Assembly (NCBI GenBank): GCA_030295235.1
Contig: AP026155.1
Location: 496,001 to 560,000, forward strand
Direction of reading: 5' to 3'
Source of the DNA: Fistulifera solaris
Taxonomy: Eukaryota; Bacillariophyta; Bacillariophyceae; Naviculales; Stauroneidaceae
Length of the DNA: 64,000 nucleotides
Below the pieces are notes generated by a model, which ran no database searches, was not told the origin of the DNA, and saw nothing but the letters and a program-made list of their open reading frames with translations. Positions 2,608-47,382 of this stretch are shown here, piece after piece. How positions within the stretch are numbered: the stretch's first letter is position 1; each line of letters opens with the position of its first letter. Position numbers and translations under genes: made by a program.

Positions 2608-4577
2608 TCACTTTTTGAGAAGCGAATCCCTGTATTCCTTAATAGCTCGTCCCCATATTTCGTAGCCTTTCTTGTTCGGATGAACGCCATCCGTGTATAA
2701 ATCAGCCTTCACTGTCCCGTCAGAGTTCAGAAACAAGTTCGTTGCTTCAAAGAATTGGACGGCATTTCCCGTCGACTCGGTAAAGCATTTTAGCTTTGAA
2801 TTGATGAGATGAATAACATCAAAGCCTGTATCCATGCGAGGAAGGATTGAATTGATGACAATTCTTGCTTTTGGTTTTCGGCGCATAATTTCTTTTACTA
2901 CGACGATGTTTGCAGCGACAATCGTATCAGAATTGCAGTCGTCGGTAATATCATTCGTCCCGATCAGTATCCATATAACTGAAACGTCAAGCTCCGAAGG
3001 GGAGTTCCCCGTTTTGAATACGATGTAGAAGGTACGATGACCTGTCTGCTGAAATTCCCATTACTAGCGTGGATTCGTTTGAAAATAGTTCGGCGAAAAC
3101 GCCCGGTATATCCCTATAGCGAAGCGATGGAGTACCGAGAACTGTTCCAAGCCACAGTTCTGTTATCGAGTCCCCCATAAGCATTAATTCCACGGTCGAC
3201 TTGTTTGCTAGAAACGGAATCAGCTGGTTTTTATTGCGCTGGAATGTTTTCGTCCATCGTGCATGCATTCTCGGGTCATCATTTGCCATGGGTAAATGAG
3301 GATCTAGACACAGACATGGATCTTTCTGACGGCAACGGTTTGTCGGCGCGGTCGAGTTTTCATTCATCATGGCGTCGAAATAGCTGGCTCTTCCGCAAAT
3401 GGGCTGAGATACCGTGTTATCATCGCGAGACATTTCAAAAATAATTTCTTCGACTCGCTGAACGATCGCCTTGCCCCAAACTCTATAGCCCTCACTCGAT
3501 AGATGAAGCGAATCTTGGTATAGCGTAGCGTTTCGATAGTCTGGACTTTCATGTGCCACAAAGAGATTGGTAGCGTCGAAGAACTCGAGGGCACTGGAGG
3601 CAAACATTTCTGAATAACACTCGAGATGCTTGTTAATTCGTAGTGCCTCTTGCCAATTCCGATCCTCTGTGAGATGCGTATCATTGGCGTTTCGACCACT
3701 GCGGGGCAACAATGAATTCAACACGACTTTCGTTTTACCTGGAGTCAACTGCATTCAAAACAAATTCCGCCACTGCAATATTCCCAGCCACCACAGCGTC
3801 TACATTGCAATGATCACCACCCAAGTCGTTGGTCCCAATATTAATCCAGATAACTTTCGCCGTCGTCAGGAGTTCACCCTCTTTCATTCGGTACAAGAGA
3901 TGCGGAATGCGGTCACCGGATATTCCTAACGCCAAGCCCCGCATCGTCCCGTCTTGAAAATAGTGCTGATACACTGGACGAACGTCACTGTAATCACGAT
4001 TCTGCCTACCAAAATCCGTTCCAAGCCAGTGTTCGGTCAAGCTATCACCGAGCAAGAGAACATCTAAGGCTTGTGAACTATTAAATCGTTGCGCTATGTC
4101 CACGTTACGCTGAAAAGCGTCGTTCCATTTTTGTAATATCGGTAATCGACGTCCTGTTTTCGCGGAATGGTAGGATTCTGGCAAAGACATTTTCGTTTCC
4201 GGCCAATATCATCACACAAATCCATGCTATCCAGTTTCTTGCGCAATGTTTGATAATACTGAAGATTTGGGCAAGAACGAATCACTTCCGGAAGCGTAGG
4301 ACCGACATAGATAGGATCCACAATGGTAGGTGCGGGAAAAGCGGCCGGTTCTTGAGAATACTCTTCTGTGGGCAGCTCCTTCAGATCCTTAGATGAGACA
4401 TCCGATGCATGGTTATCGGGCAAATAGTAGATAAGAATACTCGTGACGATGAAGAGAAAGAGGGAAAGGAGAGTATAATACAGCGTATTTTTTTGACGAA
4501 CGTTCGCTTATCCGTCTGGTCGACGGAGCTTGCTCACCTTCCCTCACTGGAAGACTTTCGTAGGCTCCTTTTGTCAT
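2608..4577 (-). CDS. Two-domain SGNH/GDSL hydrolase, type II membrane protein, several frameshifts
   Basis: Read from the ATG at 4577 this encodes a short cytosolic N-terminus, a membrane segment (LFLFIVTSILIYYL) and two SGNH hydrolase domains in tandem. Domain 1 has LLLGDSLTEHW, IGTNDLG and DSLHLSSEGY. Domain 2 has LMLMGDSITELW, IGTNDIT and DGVHPNKKGY. Both therefore keep the Ser, Asn and Asp-His catalytic blocks. Each domain is preceded by a Cys-rich CxCxDPxxP-type linker. The reading frame changes at about 4488-4494 (a run of seven T on the plus strand), 4130-4150, 3740 and 3000. In each case the continuing frame restores family motifs. It may be a decaying gene or an intact gene with sequence errors. 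SGNH enzymes of this shape act as esterases or acetylhydrolases; the substrate is unknown. The two single-domain relatives lie next to it on the same strand. Confidence 0.7.
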
Positions 4578-42261: not shown

Positions 42262-43347
42262 ATGGTTCCACTCCTTTCAACACTACTTCTGTGGATCGTG
42301 TGGCCCGGATCGATTTTGCTGGGCACATGGCTCTTGCTGTTGATCATTTTGCCCTTGGTATTGGCAGTTCTTACGTGTTGCCGACGACGACAACAACAAC
42401 ACTTTTATTCCAACCATTACCGTTCGGCATTGTATTACGGTCGCGTATGGCACACCCGGTTTAAACCCGTAGCACATTCGTTTACGTATCCCTTGTTTCT
42501 TTTCGGTTTAGACTTACACGAGGAAATCGAAGAACAAGAGTTGTTTCCGCACGTATTGTGGCCTCTGTCACTGATTATGAACTTTCGCTCCGAGGATCAT
42601 TTGAAAAATCAAGAAGGATCGTCTCACACGTCCACAAAGAAGAAGAAGAAGAACTTGAGTGAACGACTCTTGACTCTCGTCGCCGAACGCACACAACAAC
42701 GATTCCAGCCCACGACAGAGACGCATCGCATCCTGCTCTTCACACATCTCGCGTATTATGGCTATTGCTTCAATCCGGTATCCTTCTATTACCTTCAAAA
42801 CAAAACAACCAACAAGACGGATGCCGTCGTGGGAGAAGTCTCCAATACACCGTGGAATGAAATGCATTGTTATGTCTTACACGAAGCGTCCGTCGATGAT
42901 GTAGCGACGAGTGTGTTGTTGGGGACCGATACTCAGATCAATTACGTCTTTCCGAAAAAATTTCATGTTTCACCCTTTATGGAAATGGCGTACAAGTACG
43001 ATTGGACGTTTGCGGAGAAACTTGACTCCACCGTGACCATTATCAACGAAATGCGTTCCTTGACCGACAATCAACTTTGTTTTCGAGCCAAGATGCAAGT
43101 TGAACGAAAATCCCTGCATCCCGTACAATTGGCCTTTTATGTCACGACATTTCCGATCTATTGTTTCATCATTCAACTCTGGATTCATTACGAAGCCTTC
43201 CAATTGTTCATTAAAGGCGTGACCTTTCAGCCTCATCCCGATGGAACGGAAACCTGGGCGTCGCGAGCGATTGGTAACGCGATGCGTCCTTTGTTTGCGT
43301 TACAAGAATATTACGATGCCTTTTTGAAGAAAGCAAAATATGAATAA
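42262..43347 (+). CDS. DUF1365 family membrane-associated protein
   Basis: 361 residues. One or two N-terminal hydrophobic segments (about residues 5-40) are followed by the DUF1365 core: YYGRVWHTRFKPVAHSFTYP, LFTHLAYYGYCFNPVSFYY, GEVSNTPWNEMHCYVL, FHVSPFMEM and MQVERKSLHPVQL. DUF1365 proteins are often encoded beside fatty-acid cyclopropane synthases and acyl-modifying genes in bacteria, but their biochemical role is not settled. A Lys-rich insertion (about residues 130-137) sits before the conserved Tyr-rich block. It is single-exon and complete. The ATG at 42262 places the hydrophobic segment at the very N-terminus, so it may be a membrane anchor. Confidence 0.85.
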   Translation: MVPLLSTLLLWIVWPGSILLGTWLLLLIILPLVLAVLTCCRRRQQQHFYSNHYRSALYYGRVWHTRFKPVAHSFTYPLFLFGLDLHEEIEEQELFPHVLWPLSLIMNFRSEDHLKNQEGSSHTSTKKKKKNLSERLLTLVAERTQQRFQPTTETHRILLFTHLAYYGYCFNPVSFYYLQNKTTNKTDAVVGEVSNTPWNEMHCYVLHEASVDDVATSVLLGTDTQINYVFPKKFHVSPFMEMAYKYDWTFAEKLDSTVTIINEMRSLTDNQLCFRAKMQVERKSLHPVQLAFYVTTFPIYCFIIQLWIHYEAFQLFIKGVTFQPHPDGTETWASRAIGNAMRPLFALQEYYDAFLKKAKYE

Positions 43348-43572
43348 AGTATTAGATAGCTTTTGTGATACTAAATAGTGATGGTAATCAATTTTGCTTT
43401 ACAATGTAATGTGTCTTTTATCTATTCAAATAGAGCCTGTGGGGTCGTGTTAAAATGGGAATGATGTATGTAAGGGGTATAAATCTAGGGAAACAGCAGA
43501 GAATCGTCAAAAAGTCATCGACCAAATCATCATCGCGCCGGTAGTTTACACCACCGCGATAACGACCCATTA

Positions 43573-43947
43573 CTATTCCGAAACCGGGAAATAGTGAGAC
43601 GACCATGAAGGCCAAGTACTATTGAAATGCCTTGTTGTTGCCGGAGAATGTGCCAAGGTGACCGGAGGAGGCGCCTTCACTTCTGGTGCGTGCTGCTGTT
43701 GTTGTTGTGCCTGTTGTTGCCTCTTGTGCGCTCGTACGAGATCGTTACGATCACGAATCAAGCCAATATTTCCGTACATGTTGACAAAGTCTAGAGATGC
43801 TAGGAAGGAGATTGTTCCAAGAATAATAAGAGAGATAATATGATAAAAAAGCAATTGATTTCGTTTGATGGCTTTTGTGTCGTAATAATAATAAGATTGT
43901 GACGAGCTCGTCGTCGGCTGTTTGGATTTTTGGATCGGTTCGCTCAA
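43573..43947 (-). CDS. Hypothetical single-pass membrane protein (start uncertain)
   Basis: Not recognised. A 124-residue frame with a Ser/Tyr-rich N-terminus, one hydrophobic helix (LLFYHIISLIILGTISFLAS), then a basic Arg/Lys segment, a Gln run and a Pro-rich tail. The upstream limit has no ATG in frame (it opens from a TTG), so the true start may lie across an unrecognised exon or the frame may be chance. The A run in the adjacent sequence could hide a frame change. Confidence 0.35.
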   Translation of the reverse strand: MSEPIQKSKQPTTSSSQSYYYYDTKAIKRNQLLFYHIISLIILGTISFLASLDFVNMYGNIGLIRDRNDLVRAHKRQQQAQQQQQHAPEVKAPPPVTLAHSPATTRHFNSTWPSWSSHYFPVSE

Positions 43948-44398
43948 ACGAAATCACTATAGCACAGAATGTATTTTAGAAATCATCTTGTCCGTGTCTC
44001 ACAAACTTCCTTCCCGACCACGGAACTGATGTGACTGAAGGACCCCGGGACTTGATTGCAGCCCGTGAAAATGCTCCGGAATAGGAAGCTTCTACATTCT
44101 AGTAGATAGTCATTTCAGATGACATCCTGAGTCAGGTGACGCTTGACTTACGAATGAAGATGCACCTCCTCCTTTTGCGAACCAGTCGTAACGCAATCCG
44201 AACACGAACCAGCCCAACGGTGCAAATAGCAAATAGCTAGGCTTATACCTGAACCCGTACTAGCGATGTGGAGAAATGATAGCACCGCATGAAAAATGAC
44301 GACAAAGACTAAATTGAATCATCCTAGCAATGTAACTTTAAAGATCTATAGTATTGTATATTTTACTGTATGAATCTATGGGAAACAATCCTCTTTAT
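43948..44398. other. Intergenic, no gene recognised
   Basis: Between two minus-strand genes. No domain, RNA or repeat is seen. Confidence 0.5.
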
Positions 44399-45145
44399 CT
44401 AAGAGAAGAAGCCAATATTGAGACGGGCCGTGGCTCTTGCGTGGTCATCCTGTACACTGTCGGGTAGAACAGTCGTTGTAGCATGGTTCGAGAAGAAATC
44501 AATGTTGTCGCGAGGTGAATCTTGTTTGCTCTGGAAAGCGTGCTTGTCTTGCAGAGCAAAGAAATCAATGTTGTTACGGGCCCGCAGGCGCGCGTGAGTC
44601 GTCATGTCTTTCGTTGTTTTTGTATCGTTGGGAACCATCGTCAAAAAGAAGTCGATGTTATCACGAGCTCGTTGGCGAGCGTGTTCGGGTGTAACGTGAT
44701 CGGGGATCATGGTTCCTACCGCATGACTGGAGAAGAAATCAATCTGATCGTGCAGATGAGGGACGATACTTGGTTTCGTTTCGGGTACGTTTCCCACCAA
44801 ATCCTTCTTGAGCGAATAACCAATGTGCTCACGAGCCCGCTGTCGTGCAACTTCCTGATTGGGAGAAGGAGTACGCTGTTTGATGTACAAACGAAAGCTT
44901 TCCTCATCCTCGAAAATCAATTGATAGCCATGTCCTTCTTTGCCGGGCATTTCCAGATCTTCGTAATTTCCCAAGAACGCATCCGCAATAGGAGGAGGAG
45001 GAAAGACGGTTGCGGCATCTACTTCGGCCATTTCCAAGATTCCCTTGCCCAAACGAAGTGACGTCTGGATGAGTTGACGGGAAGGAATGGAAAAGGCCTG
45101 AGTCGTAGCCACAATGGCCAATAGGATGGGTAATCGGAATGTCAT
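44399..45145 (-). CDS. Plastid-targeted repeat protein with six NIDFF-type repeats
   Basis: 248 residues, not recognised. The N-terminus is a signal peptide (RLPILLAIVATTQA) followed directly by FSIPSRQ, the A/F cleavage motif of diatom plastid import, then a basic transit part. After a Pro-rich spacer (residues 49-53) the C-terminal 145 residues hold six copies of a short motif: HIGYSL (107), QIDFFSSHA (134), NIDFFLT (163), NIDFFAL (192), NIDFFSNHA (214) and NIGFFS at the very C-terminus (243). Spacing is 22-29 residues. Most copies are preceded by HARxRARxN. Between them the chain is polar and probably disordered. The layout suggests a multivalent binding protein in the plastid. A TACCAGGTA site lies 68 bp upstream. 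Confidence 0.75.
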   Translation of the reverse strand: MTFRLPILLAIVATTQAFSIPSRQLIQTSLRLGKGILEMAEVDAATVFPPPPIADAFLGNYEDLEMPGKEGHGYQLIFEDEESFRLYIKQRTPSPNQEVARQRAREHIGYSLKKDLVGNVPETKPSIVPHLHDQIDFFSSHAVGTMIPDHVTPEHARQRARDNIDFFLTMVPNDTKTTKDMTTHARLRARNNIDFFALQDKHAFQSKQDSPRDNIDFFSNHATTTVLPDSVQDDHARATARLNIGFFS

Positions 45146-45212
45146 GATGTGTAGCTGGTATTACTTCTTGTTGTTGCTGCGTTTTATGATAGCATGAAAG
45201 TGTTTGTAGAAA

Positions 45213-45221
45213 TACCAGGTA
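45213..45221. promoter_or_regulatory. TACCAGGTA site
   Basis: Exact motif 68 bp upstream of the minus-strand repeat-protein start codon at 45145. Confidence 0.35.
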
Positions 45222-45396
45222 GTAGATTCGATGGTATTCGTTGGTTTATTTTGATGATGATGATTCATCGACGACGATCGGTGTCAAAAAAAAGAACAGT
45301 GACTTCATCGTTGTTTTGCATTTTCGTGAAAGTGTCAAGGCAGCGCGTGTCGTAGCGAAATTGATGCGAACGGGTTCGGTTCTATTACGAGCCCCA

Positions 45397-45440
45397 GACA
45401 GACAGACGGATGGACAGACAGACAGACGGACTGACGGACC
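45397..45440. repeat. GACA/GACG-rich microsatellite
   Basis: Imperfect tetranucleotide repeat of the CAGA type with CGGA variants in the divergent promoter region. Confidence 0.7.
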
Positions 45441-45726
45441 TGTCAAATGTCCTCTACATACGCGCAACAAGATTGGATGATGAGTGCAGAGTGTGACGTC
45501 TTTGATTTGAATGGCGACGATGTGAGAAAAAAAAAGACCCCAAAACGTATTGTTGGAAACATCCTTTGGATCATTCCTATGATTGATTCTCCTCTTTTCA
45601 TACTTACAAGAATCGCTAAGTACCAGCCAGGTACAATTGAGTTCCAAGTTTGCGTGCGCCATTCACAAGGAGACCTCCAGCATTCGGCGTATTTTTTTAT
45701 TCATTGCAACAACACAAAAGGCGAGT

Positions 45727-47382
45727 ATGATGATACTAACACGAACACCAATACGAACGGCTCGGATTGAGCCTTTCGCGAGAACGATAGCAACATCACC
45801 ACTCTTTTCAACAACAGCTGCATTTCTGTCAACTTCCACCAAGAAGACAAAGAAACCCCGCGTCGTCATTCTCGGATCTGGTTGGGCCGGTAATACTCTG
45901 GCACGTCGACTCGACAAACAAAAATACGATGTTCGTTTGATTAGTCCGGCAAATCACTTCTTGTTTACGTCCTTACTACCTTCCACGGCCGTCGGGACGT
46001 TGGAATTCCGGGCCATTCAAGAACCTGTTCGTACAATTGCCGGTCTTGGAGAATACTATCAAGCGAAAGCCTTGCAGTTGGGTGTCACCGACGAAGGCAA
46101 AACGGTAGTGCACTGTGCCGATCTCTTCAAGGGACACGAATTCCCCGTCCGGTACGATTATTTGGTGGTAGCGGCGGGCAATAAGACCAATACCTTTCAA
46201 ACACCCGGCATTGCGGAACGAGAAGGGAAGGAAGTTTTCTTTTGAAGCACCTGTATCATGCACGACAAATTCGCAATCGAGTCTTGGAATGTTTCGAACG
46301 AGCCTCGAATCCCAACATTACCGATTTTGAACGCGATCGATTGCTGTCGTTTGTCATTGTCGGTGGAGGACCCACGAGTTGCGAGTTTACGACGGAATTG
46401 TACGATTTCTTACAACAAGATGTCGTGCAGTGGTATCCGGATTTGATGTCGCATGTGAAGGTGACTTTGGTGGAAGCCGGACCAGGGTTGCTTGGTTCTT
46501 TTCATCAATCTTTGGCGGATTATTATCTGAAGAAATTGAAAGAAAAGAAAATTGATGTTCGTCTTTCCATGGCGGTCATTGGAGTGGAACTCCGACCGTA
46601 TGCCAAAGCGAATACGACTAGCGACGAAAGTCCCAACAGCGATGTCACGAACGATCCCAATCATCCCCACCGATCTTCCGCTATGGGACAATATACCGTC
46701 GCACAATTTGCCGATGGTACCGAATTACCCTTTGGTACGATGGTTTGGTCGGCAGGATTGGCACCGGTCCGATTTGTGAAAGATTCGGGCTTTCAATTGC
46801 AACGTGGACGGATCGTCGTGGATGAATACTTGCGTGTCCCGGACCACGAAAATGTCTTTGCTTTGGGGGATTGTGCCGCCCTGGTCAGTGGTCCTTTACC
46901 ACCCACGGCATCGGTAGCGGAGCAGCAAGCGTATTACTTGGCCGATTGTTTCAACAAGTATTATTACGAAGCTGCCACACGGAAAGAACCATTGCCACTC
47001 CCGGGTCCTGTAGCACCCGCTCTCATGCCATGGAAGTTACTTGAATTTCTTAATCCGATTTTGTGCAAATCACAGCCCGAATTTACGTACAAGAATCGTG
47101 GAATGATGGCAGGCATGGGTACGTCATTTGTGAATTTTTTGATTTGATATTCTTGGTTTTCCAAGCTCACTTAATTACGTGGGTATAGGCTTTGGTGGTG
47201 GTGTCACCGACTTGACCAACACCGATTTACCCTCCCCCAAGACGACCATGTCTGGTACAGCGGCGTTTGTGACATGGAGAACAACTTACTTGACGAAACA
47301 ATTGAGTTGGAAGAATATGATGCTGATTCCCATGTACTGGTTCAAAGCCATGGTTTTTGGTAGAGACATTAGTCGCTTTTAA
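45727..47382 (+). CDS. Type II NADH dehydrogenase (NDH-2), mitochondrial-type
   Basis: The ATG at 45727 (second at 45730) opens a basic, Thr-rich presequence suited to mitochondria. The first FAD-binding fold is [19 protein letters not shown]. The first frame stops at 46245 after TTTT (46240-46243). One more T gives [17 protein letters not shown] and continues into the second nucleotide fold, [20 protein letters not shown], followed by [11 protein letters not shown]. The 70-bp intron (47119-47188, GTACGT...TATAG) separates exon 2 (47189-47382), whose product ends in a membrane-binding tail with [26 protein letters not shown]-2 passes electrons from NAD(P)H to quinone without pumping protons. 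The matrix or intermembrane face cannot be told from sequence. Confidence 0.87.

Follow-up and report, generated by a model that had tools for sequence, protein, structure and literature searches.

In the literature covered, the only Rubisco linker described from a diatom is PYCO1 of Phaeodactylum tricornutum (Oh et al. 2023), a protein of 592 residues with six tandem repeats of about 80 residues, a prion-like domain and an isoelectric point of 10.03 (PMC10288592). Its repeats are reported to carry KWSPR and GTGYNP, and the KWSP stickers, which are described for the small subunit, contain an essential tryptophan (PMC10288592). A BLAST search by its authors is reported to have found no homologue in other sequenced algae (PMC10288592). 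With PYCO1 standing alone and lacking BLAST relatives, pyrenoid cohesion in other diatoms looks open. The question could be tested directly on a second plastid-type repeat protein whose motif is distinct and has changed little; we describe a candidate from Fistulifera solaris, a diatom for which genome editing has been reported (PMC13276009). Even with a partner other than Rubisco, the protein would add a plastid interaction motif that has no name so far.

The window, a stretch of 64,000 nucleotides, spans C39:496001-560000 in an assembly of 51.7 Mb and 61 contigs. A single open frame on its minus strand encodes the protein (Table 1), and a diverged second copy lies on another contig (C38:529292-530013), with a protein identity of 85-86% to the C39 copy. 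The open frame is real and encodes a constrained repeat protein that has no named family in the libraries searched. Pfam-A returned 0 families (C39 protein at E values up to 10, body of the C38 copy up to 0.01) and the PDB sequences hold no relative, in agreement with the earlier note, which knew of no named family with this pattern. The C39 protein has no cysteine and no RR pair and, like the C38 body, no tryptophan; one tyrosine occurs within residues 95-248. The latter part is hydrophilic (GRAVY -0.73), with almost no net charge in the repeat region, and the computed isoelectric point is 5.99 for residues 18-248 and 6.93 for residues 95-248.

Table 1. Features of the repeat-protein gene, with coordinates counted from the first base of the window.
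Feature	Coordinates	Strand	Remarks
Whole open reading frame	44399..45145	minus	248 aa plus stop; second copy on C38, body omega 0.168
Signal-peptide-like stretch, aa 1-17, MTFRLPILLAIVATTQA	45095..45145	minus	hydropathy; residues 1-18 identical at 15/18 in the C38 copy
Transit-peptide-like stretch from F18, aa 18-38	45032..45094	minus	composition of residues 19-37
Conserved N-terminal segment of the body, aa 39-92	44870..45031	minus	omega 0.077, no family; beta hairpin in low-confidence model
Motif 1, aa 100-111, ARQRAREHIGYS	44813..44848	minus	strongly degenerate; unchanged in the C38 copy
Motif 2, aa 134-138, QIDFF	44732..44746	minus	without ARxxAR
Motif 3, aa 156-167, ARQRARDNIDFF	44645..44680	minus	
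Motif 4, aa 185-196, ARLRARNNIDFF	44558..44593	minus	residue preceding NIDFF is D in C38
Motif 5, aa 214-218, NIDFF	44492..44506	minus	without ARxxAR
Motif 6, aa 236-247, ARATARLNIGFF	44405..44440	minus	ends one residue ahead of the stop
Internal duplication, first copy, aa 135-167	44645..44743	minus	gapless alignment, offset 80 residues
Internal duplication, second copy, aa 215-247	44405..44503	minus	gapless alignment, offset 80 residues
3' untranslated region, probable	44324..44390	minus	67 bases following the stop that are the same in both gene copies

The 67-base run shared by both copies downstream of the stop codon is perhaps a regulatory 3' UTR element. Past this run, the identity between C39 and C38 is 68% and 55% in two 60-base windows (44180-44299) and 87% in 44120-44179. 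No Rfam match was found within 43300-46000, and a scan for bacterial-type promoters and terminators in 44200-45400, which is not applicable to a nuclear gene, gave 2 and 0 sites versus 2.1 and 0.9 in shuffles. Two neighbouring frames were also noted. At about 43590-43960 on the minus strand, an open frame that has no obvious start encodes LLFYHIISLIILGTISFLASL, a membrane-like stretch, and then MYGNIGLIRDRNDLVRAHKRQ, and includes a 53-base run (43700-43752) identical in the other copy; it may be the final exon of a small membrane protein. On the plus strand, a pyridine-nucleotide-disulphide oxidoreductase gene (45727-47147), which may be a type II NADH dehydrogenase, is split over two frames that match the front and the back of the Pfam profile, and the break between them is an intron or a frameshift.

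Plastid import in diatoms is described as depending on a phenylalanine at position +1 and a transit peptide that is poor in acidic residues, rich in hydroxylated ones and net positive (PMC4329603). The start of the protein is consistent with this description. Kyte-Doolittle values reach 1.83 to 1.95 in 11-residue windows starting at residues 1, 4 and 7, an A17|F18 junction follows, and residues 19-37 contain 4 Ser/Thr, 3 Arg/Lys and 0 Asp/Glu, acidic residues being absent from residue 18 to 37. In the first 36 codons the two copies are identical at 27 of 36 residues with a dN/dS of 0.39, and the A|F junction is kept, which suggests a presequence that has been coding in both lineages. The hydrophobic stretch, the junction and the acid-free basic stretch, which the earlier note had read as a diatom plastid presequence, support that reading, and the protein is probably nucleus-encoded and chloroplast-targeted.

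The C38 copy complicates this picture. As assembled, it misses one base near codon 37 (about position 3905 of the locus sequence), at the border between presequence and body, and this puts the presequence out of frame with a body that is itself open and conserved and whose first ATG matches M39. The conservation of motif and body in C38 argues that the frameshift is either recent or an assembly error; alternatively, the C38 copy may be made without a targeting signal. The same break speaks for a protein outside the stroma, be it a secreted or periplastidial one or a cytosolic product started internally at M39. We consider such a location improbable, since both copies have a phenylalanine right after the likely cleavage site (+1), the C39 copy lacks acidic residues in residues 19-37 and the presequence omega is 0.39.

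The repeats centre on six 5-mers, HIGYS at residue 107, QIDFF at 134, NIDFF at 163, 192 and 214, and NIGFF at 243, which follow each other at 27, 29, 29, 22 and 29 residues in C39 and at 27, 29, 26, 22 and 29 residues in C38. The earlier note had listed six NIDFF/NIGFF copies spaced 22-29 residues apart, most of them preceded by HARxRARxN. Its spacing is borne out by these measurements, and its count stands for the four copies that read NI[DG]FF, the other two (QIDFF and HIGYS) being degenerate. Likewise, a basic element does precede most copies, in the form of ARxxAR at residues 100, 156, 185 and 236, upstream of four of the six; the full string is exact at two places only (residues 155-163 and 184-192). 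The histidine does not belong to it: the position just ahead of ARxxAR reads V, H, H and H in C39 but D, N, Q and P in C38, which puts it outside the motif and leaves ARxxARxNI[D/G]FF as the core that was kept. The array far exceeds what chance would produce: when residues 39-248 were shuffled 200,000 times, NI[DG]FF and [NQH]I[DG][FY][FS] each occurred at most once in any shuffle (observed 4 and 6), and ARxxAR reached two a single time (observed 4). The gapless alignment of residues 135-167 with residues 215-247, offset by 80 residues, points to duplication of a larger unit as the probable source of at least part of the array.

The eight residues ahead of the 5-mer carry a net charge of +2 to +3 in copies 1, 3, 4 and 6, as might be expected if the arginine-rich half of the motif bound nucleic acid or a membrane surface in the plastid. 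Copies 2 and 5 lack ARxxAR and have charges of -1 and 0 in these residues, and the full protein is slightly acidic; we regard this explanation as very improbable. Processing at the arginines into peptides was considered and rejected, as the basic sites do not fit the furin rules and motif 2 has no such site.

The comparison of the two copies shows where the protein is constrained. Fistulifera solaris has been called allodiploid (PMC13276009) and is reported to have 42 pairs of homoeologous chromosomes (PMC5935921). The 8-kb loci on C39 and C38 can be aligned along about 7.5 kb, with 81.8% identity, and paired, diverged contigs occur elsewhere in the assembly as well (e.g., at similar positions on C3 and C4), which fits such a genome. 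The protein identity between the copies is ordinary for a working gene, since a neighbouring gene with the Pfam domain DUF1365 (42262-43347) is 83.5% identical in protein between its copies. The body is under purifying selection, with dS 0.430, dN 0.072 and omega 0.168 over 203 aligned codons of these two sequences, and the conserved N-terminal segment has the lowest omega among the larger blocks compared between C39 and C38.

Within residues 93-248, the motif core, i.e., the six 5-mers and the 16 A/R positions of the four ARxxAR, is unchanged at all 46 positions versus 26 changes at 105 positions elsewhere (Fisher p = 2.6e-5), a value that is optimistic because the core was trimmed to ARxxAR after sight of both copies. 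The six 5-mers alone give 0/30 versus 26/121 (p = 0.0017) over the same region of the two copies, the wider motif of the earlier note, with the H and x positions included, gives 5/62 versus 21/89 (p = 0.0098), and plain 13-residue windows give a weak contrast of 8/78 versus 18/73 (p = 0.016). The short repeated motif singled out by that note has accordingly changed less than its surroundings, although two sequences are a thin basis for such figures. From the first motif to the last, the copies differ in length at one place only, by 3 codons in columns 175-177, and this place falls within a spacer. Some spacer blocks are unchanged as well (residues 128-133 before motif 2, 139-145 and 197-208), which counts against a pure sticker-and-spacer picture.

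We tentatively favour, at somewhat less than an even chance, a stromal protein with repeated binding sites on a polar tail, in which each motif would become helical on docking. This reading follows from the motif core being unchanged between the copies while its surroundings changed more, and it starts from what is observed, namely the gene, the motif, its repetition and the lower change in the core; the plastid location, the helix on binding and the multivalent docking we infer. The nucleus-encoded protein would be imported into the plastid stroma, and removal of the presequence would leave about 210 residues, comprising a short conserved N-terminal segment and the polar tail with six motifs. 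The binding motif would be ARxxARxNI[D/G]FF or a shortened form of it, which on docking to a partner would probably fold into a short helix with two aromatic residues at its end. One chain could then bind several partners at once, or a single oligomer at several sites. In its favour we count the low omega of the body, the absence of change in the core, the position of the length change in a spacer, the coding presequence and the helices in the structural models described below. Against it count the occurrence of the motif in the two gene copies only, the degenerate motif 1, the unchanged spacer blocks, the two-sequence basis of the constraint, the weaker contrast under wider motif definitions, a helical moment of the motif windows no better than in shuffles (three tested) and a repeat region that the charge-hydropathy estimate places just on the ordered side.

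The structural predictions bear on this last point. AlphaFold models of the full protein (two-row alignment) and of residues 94-248 (one row) have mean pLDDT values of 32.6 and 49.2, respectively, and both show six separate helices in the repeat region, one per motif, which at such low confidence are a hint at most. In the charge-hydropathy analysis, residues 37-94 fall on the disordered side (0.138 versus a boundary of 0.104) and residues 95-248 just on the ordered side (R 0.006 versus 0.016), so that disorder of the repeat region is not established. An amphipathic nature of the helices was considered and dropped: for the helical moment, two of the six windows lie above the 90th percentile, but 37 to 70% of shuffles do equally well (three tested).

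A helix on each motif, even in models of low confidence, makes a folded helical-repeat protein a real rival, with one helix per unit of 22-29 residues and the isoleucine and two phenylalanines of each unit packing between helices. It would agree with the unchanged isoleucine and aromatic residues of the 5-mers, with the ordered-side position of the repeat region and with the spacing of 29 residues in three of five cases in the C39 copy. It agrees less with the low pLDDT of both models, the hydrophilic character of the region, a spacing that varies from 22 to 29 and in one case is 29 in one copy versus 26 in the other, and the lack of a PDB or Pfam relative. We therefore consider a helical-repeat fold rather unlikely, while taking it seriously.

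The multi-site binding protein that we favour appears to be alone in its genome. A search with the protein against its own genome, at E values up to 10, recovered the gene itself, two pieces of the C38 copy and one weak match on C3 (E 1.5). The pattern RARxNI[D/E/G]FF with up to 2 mismatches gave 42 matches there, the control 16; those with at most 1 mismatch, 6 in number, all lie in the two gene copies, and the other 36 have 2 mismatches, an excess over the control that is not fully explained. At 0 or 1 mismatch, no second protein sharing the motif was thus found in the own genome. The DNA pattern for NIDFF alone is too short to be informative (338 matches versus 226 in the control). Collections from other organisms say little about diatoms: viral contigs gave 12 and 67 pattern matches and the protein scan of prokaryote contigs 151, none of them confirmed, and the DNA pattern met 5 single, bare matches in 5 bacterial records among the prokaryote contigs. 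A literature search found nothing joining NIDFF with diatoms, and searches for the motif strings returned no diatom title among the matches listed.

The earlier note had drawn a parallel with pyrenoid linkers, and in one respect the parallel holds, as the regular spacing of 22-29 residues lies inside the range of 20-120 residues given for Rubisco linkers by Barrett et al. (PMC11570498). As a special case of the binding-site reading, the motifs might dock on diatom Rubisco and thereby keep the pyrenoid matrix in one body, in the way described for PYCO1, EPYC1 and CsLinker in other algae. Such a role could draw on the plastid-type presequence, the short repeated motif and its spacing. A 2026 review moreover describes EPYC1, PYCO1 and CsLinker as having no shared sequence homology (PMC13159521), so that missing similarity is compatible with a linker role. 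A link to Rubisco or the pyrenoid is not supported, however: the protein has no tryptophan and hence no KWSP, its isoelectric point is 5.99 versus 10.03 in PYCO1 (PMC10288592) and its length is 248 versus 592 residues. We regard a pyrenoid linker, like Rubisco as the partner of the motif, as improbable, and the pyrenoid role of this protein as a guess. Similarly improbable is the idea of a stromal scaffold with a sticker of its own, ARxxARxNI[D/G]FF on a near-neutral chain, that would gather Rubisco or another abundant plastid enzyme as an independently evolved stand-in for PYCO1 in this lineage.

Whether PYCO1 itself occurs in this genome was approached with two motif patterns, both weak tests. 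KWSPRG, with one mismatch allowed, matched 149 times versus 116 for the reversed pattern (5 exact), and the large-subunit motif EWxSMN gave 6 versus 5 in the control; no clear PYCO1 gene emerged, as far as the KWSPRG matches listed go. Among these, a candidate on C5 was the only pair within 1 kb and was rejected, as it lies in no open frame of at least 100 amino acids. This pair (C5:642979 and 643214) is a 17-base word repeated 235 bases apart.

Like the present protein, EPYC1 of Chlamydomonas and CsLinker of Chlorella have repeated short sites at a linker-like spacing, but they are green-algal, differ in sequence and are demonstrated to bind the small and the large subunit of Rubisco, respectively (PMC11570498). 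In Chlamydomonas, a Rubisco-binding motif is reported to be common to many pyrenoid proteins (PMC10614612); here, by contrast, two gene copies are the only carriers at 0 or 1 mismatch in the own genome. In CsoS2 of alpha-carboxysomes, too, a short motif with arginines recurs several times along one chain, but CsoS2 is bacterial and its motif is RxxxxxRRxxxxxxGK (PMC10614612, PMC13159521), which is absent from the present protein, as this has no RR pair. CP12, described as a conditionally disordered chloroplast regulator, is a small, flexible plastid protein with enzyme partners, traits that the present protein may share; CP12 works via redox-active cysteines, while the present protein has repeats and no cysteine. 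From PYCO1 it differs in its 248 residues, its spacing of 22-29 residues, the lack of tryptophan, the single tyrosine in residues 95-248 and an isoelectric point of about 6. As KWSP(R), GTGYNP and an isoelectric point of about 10 are absent, we do not file it as a member of PYCO1. With PYCO1 it nevertheless shares that it is a diatom protein with a plastid-type presequence and six repeats with short motifs, and that aromatic residues stand in its candidate stickers.
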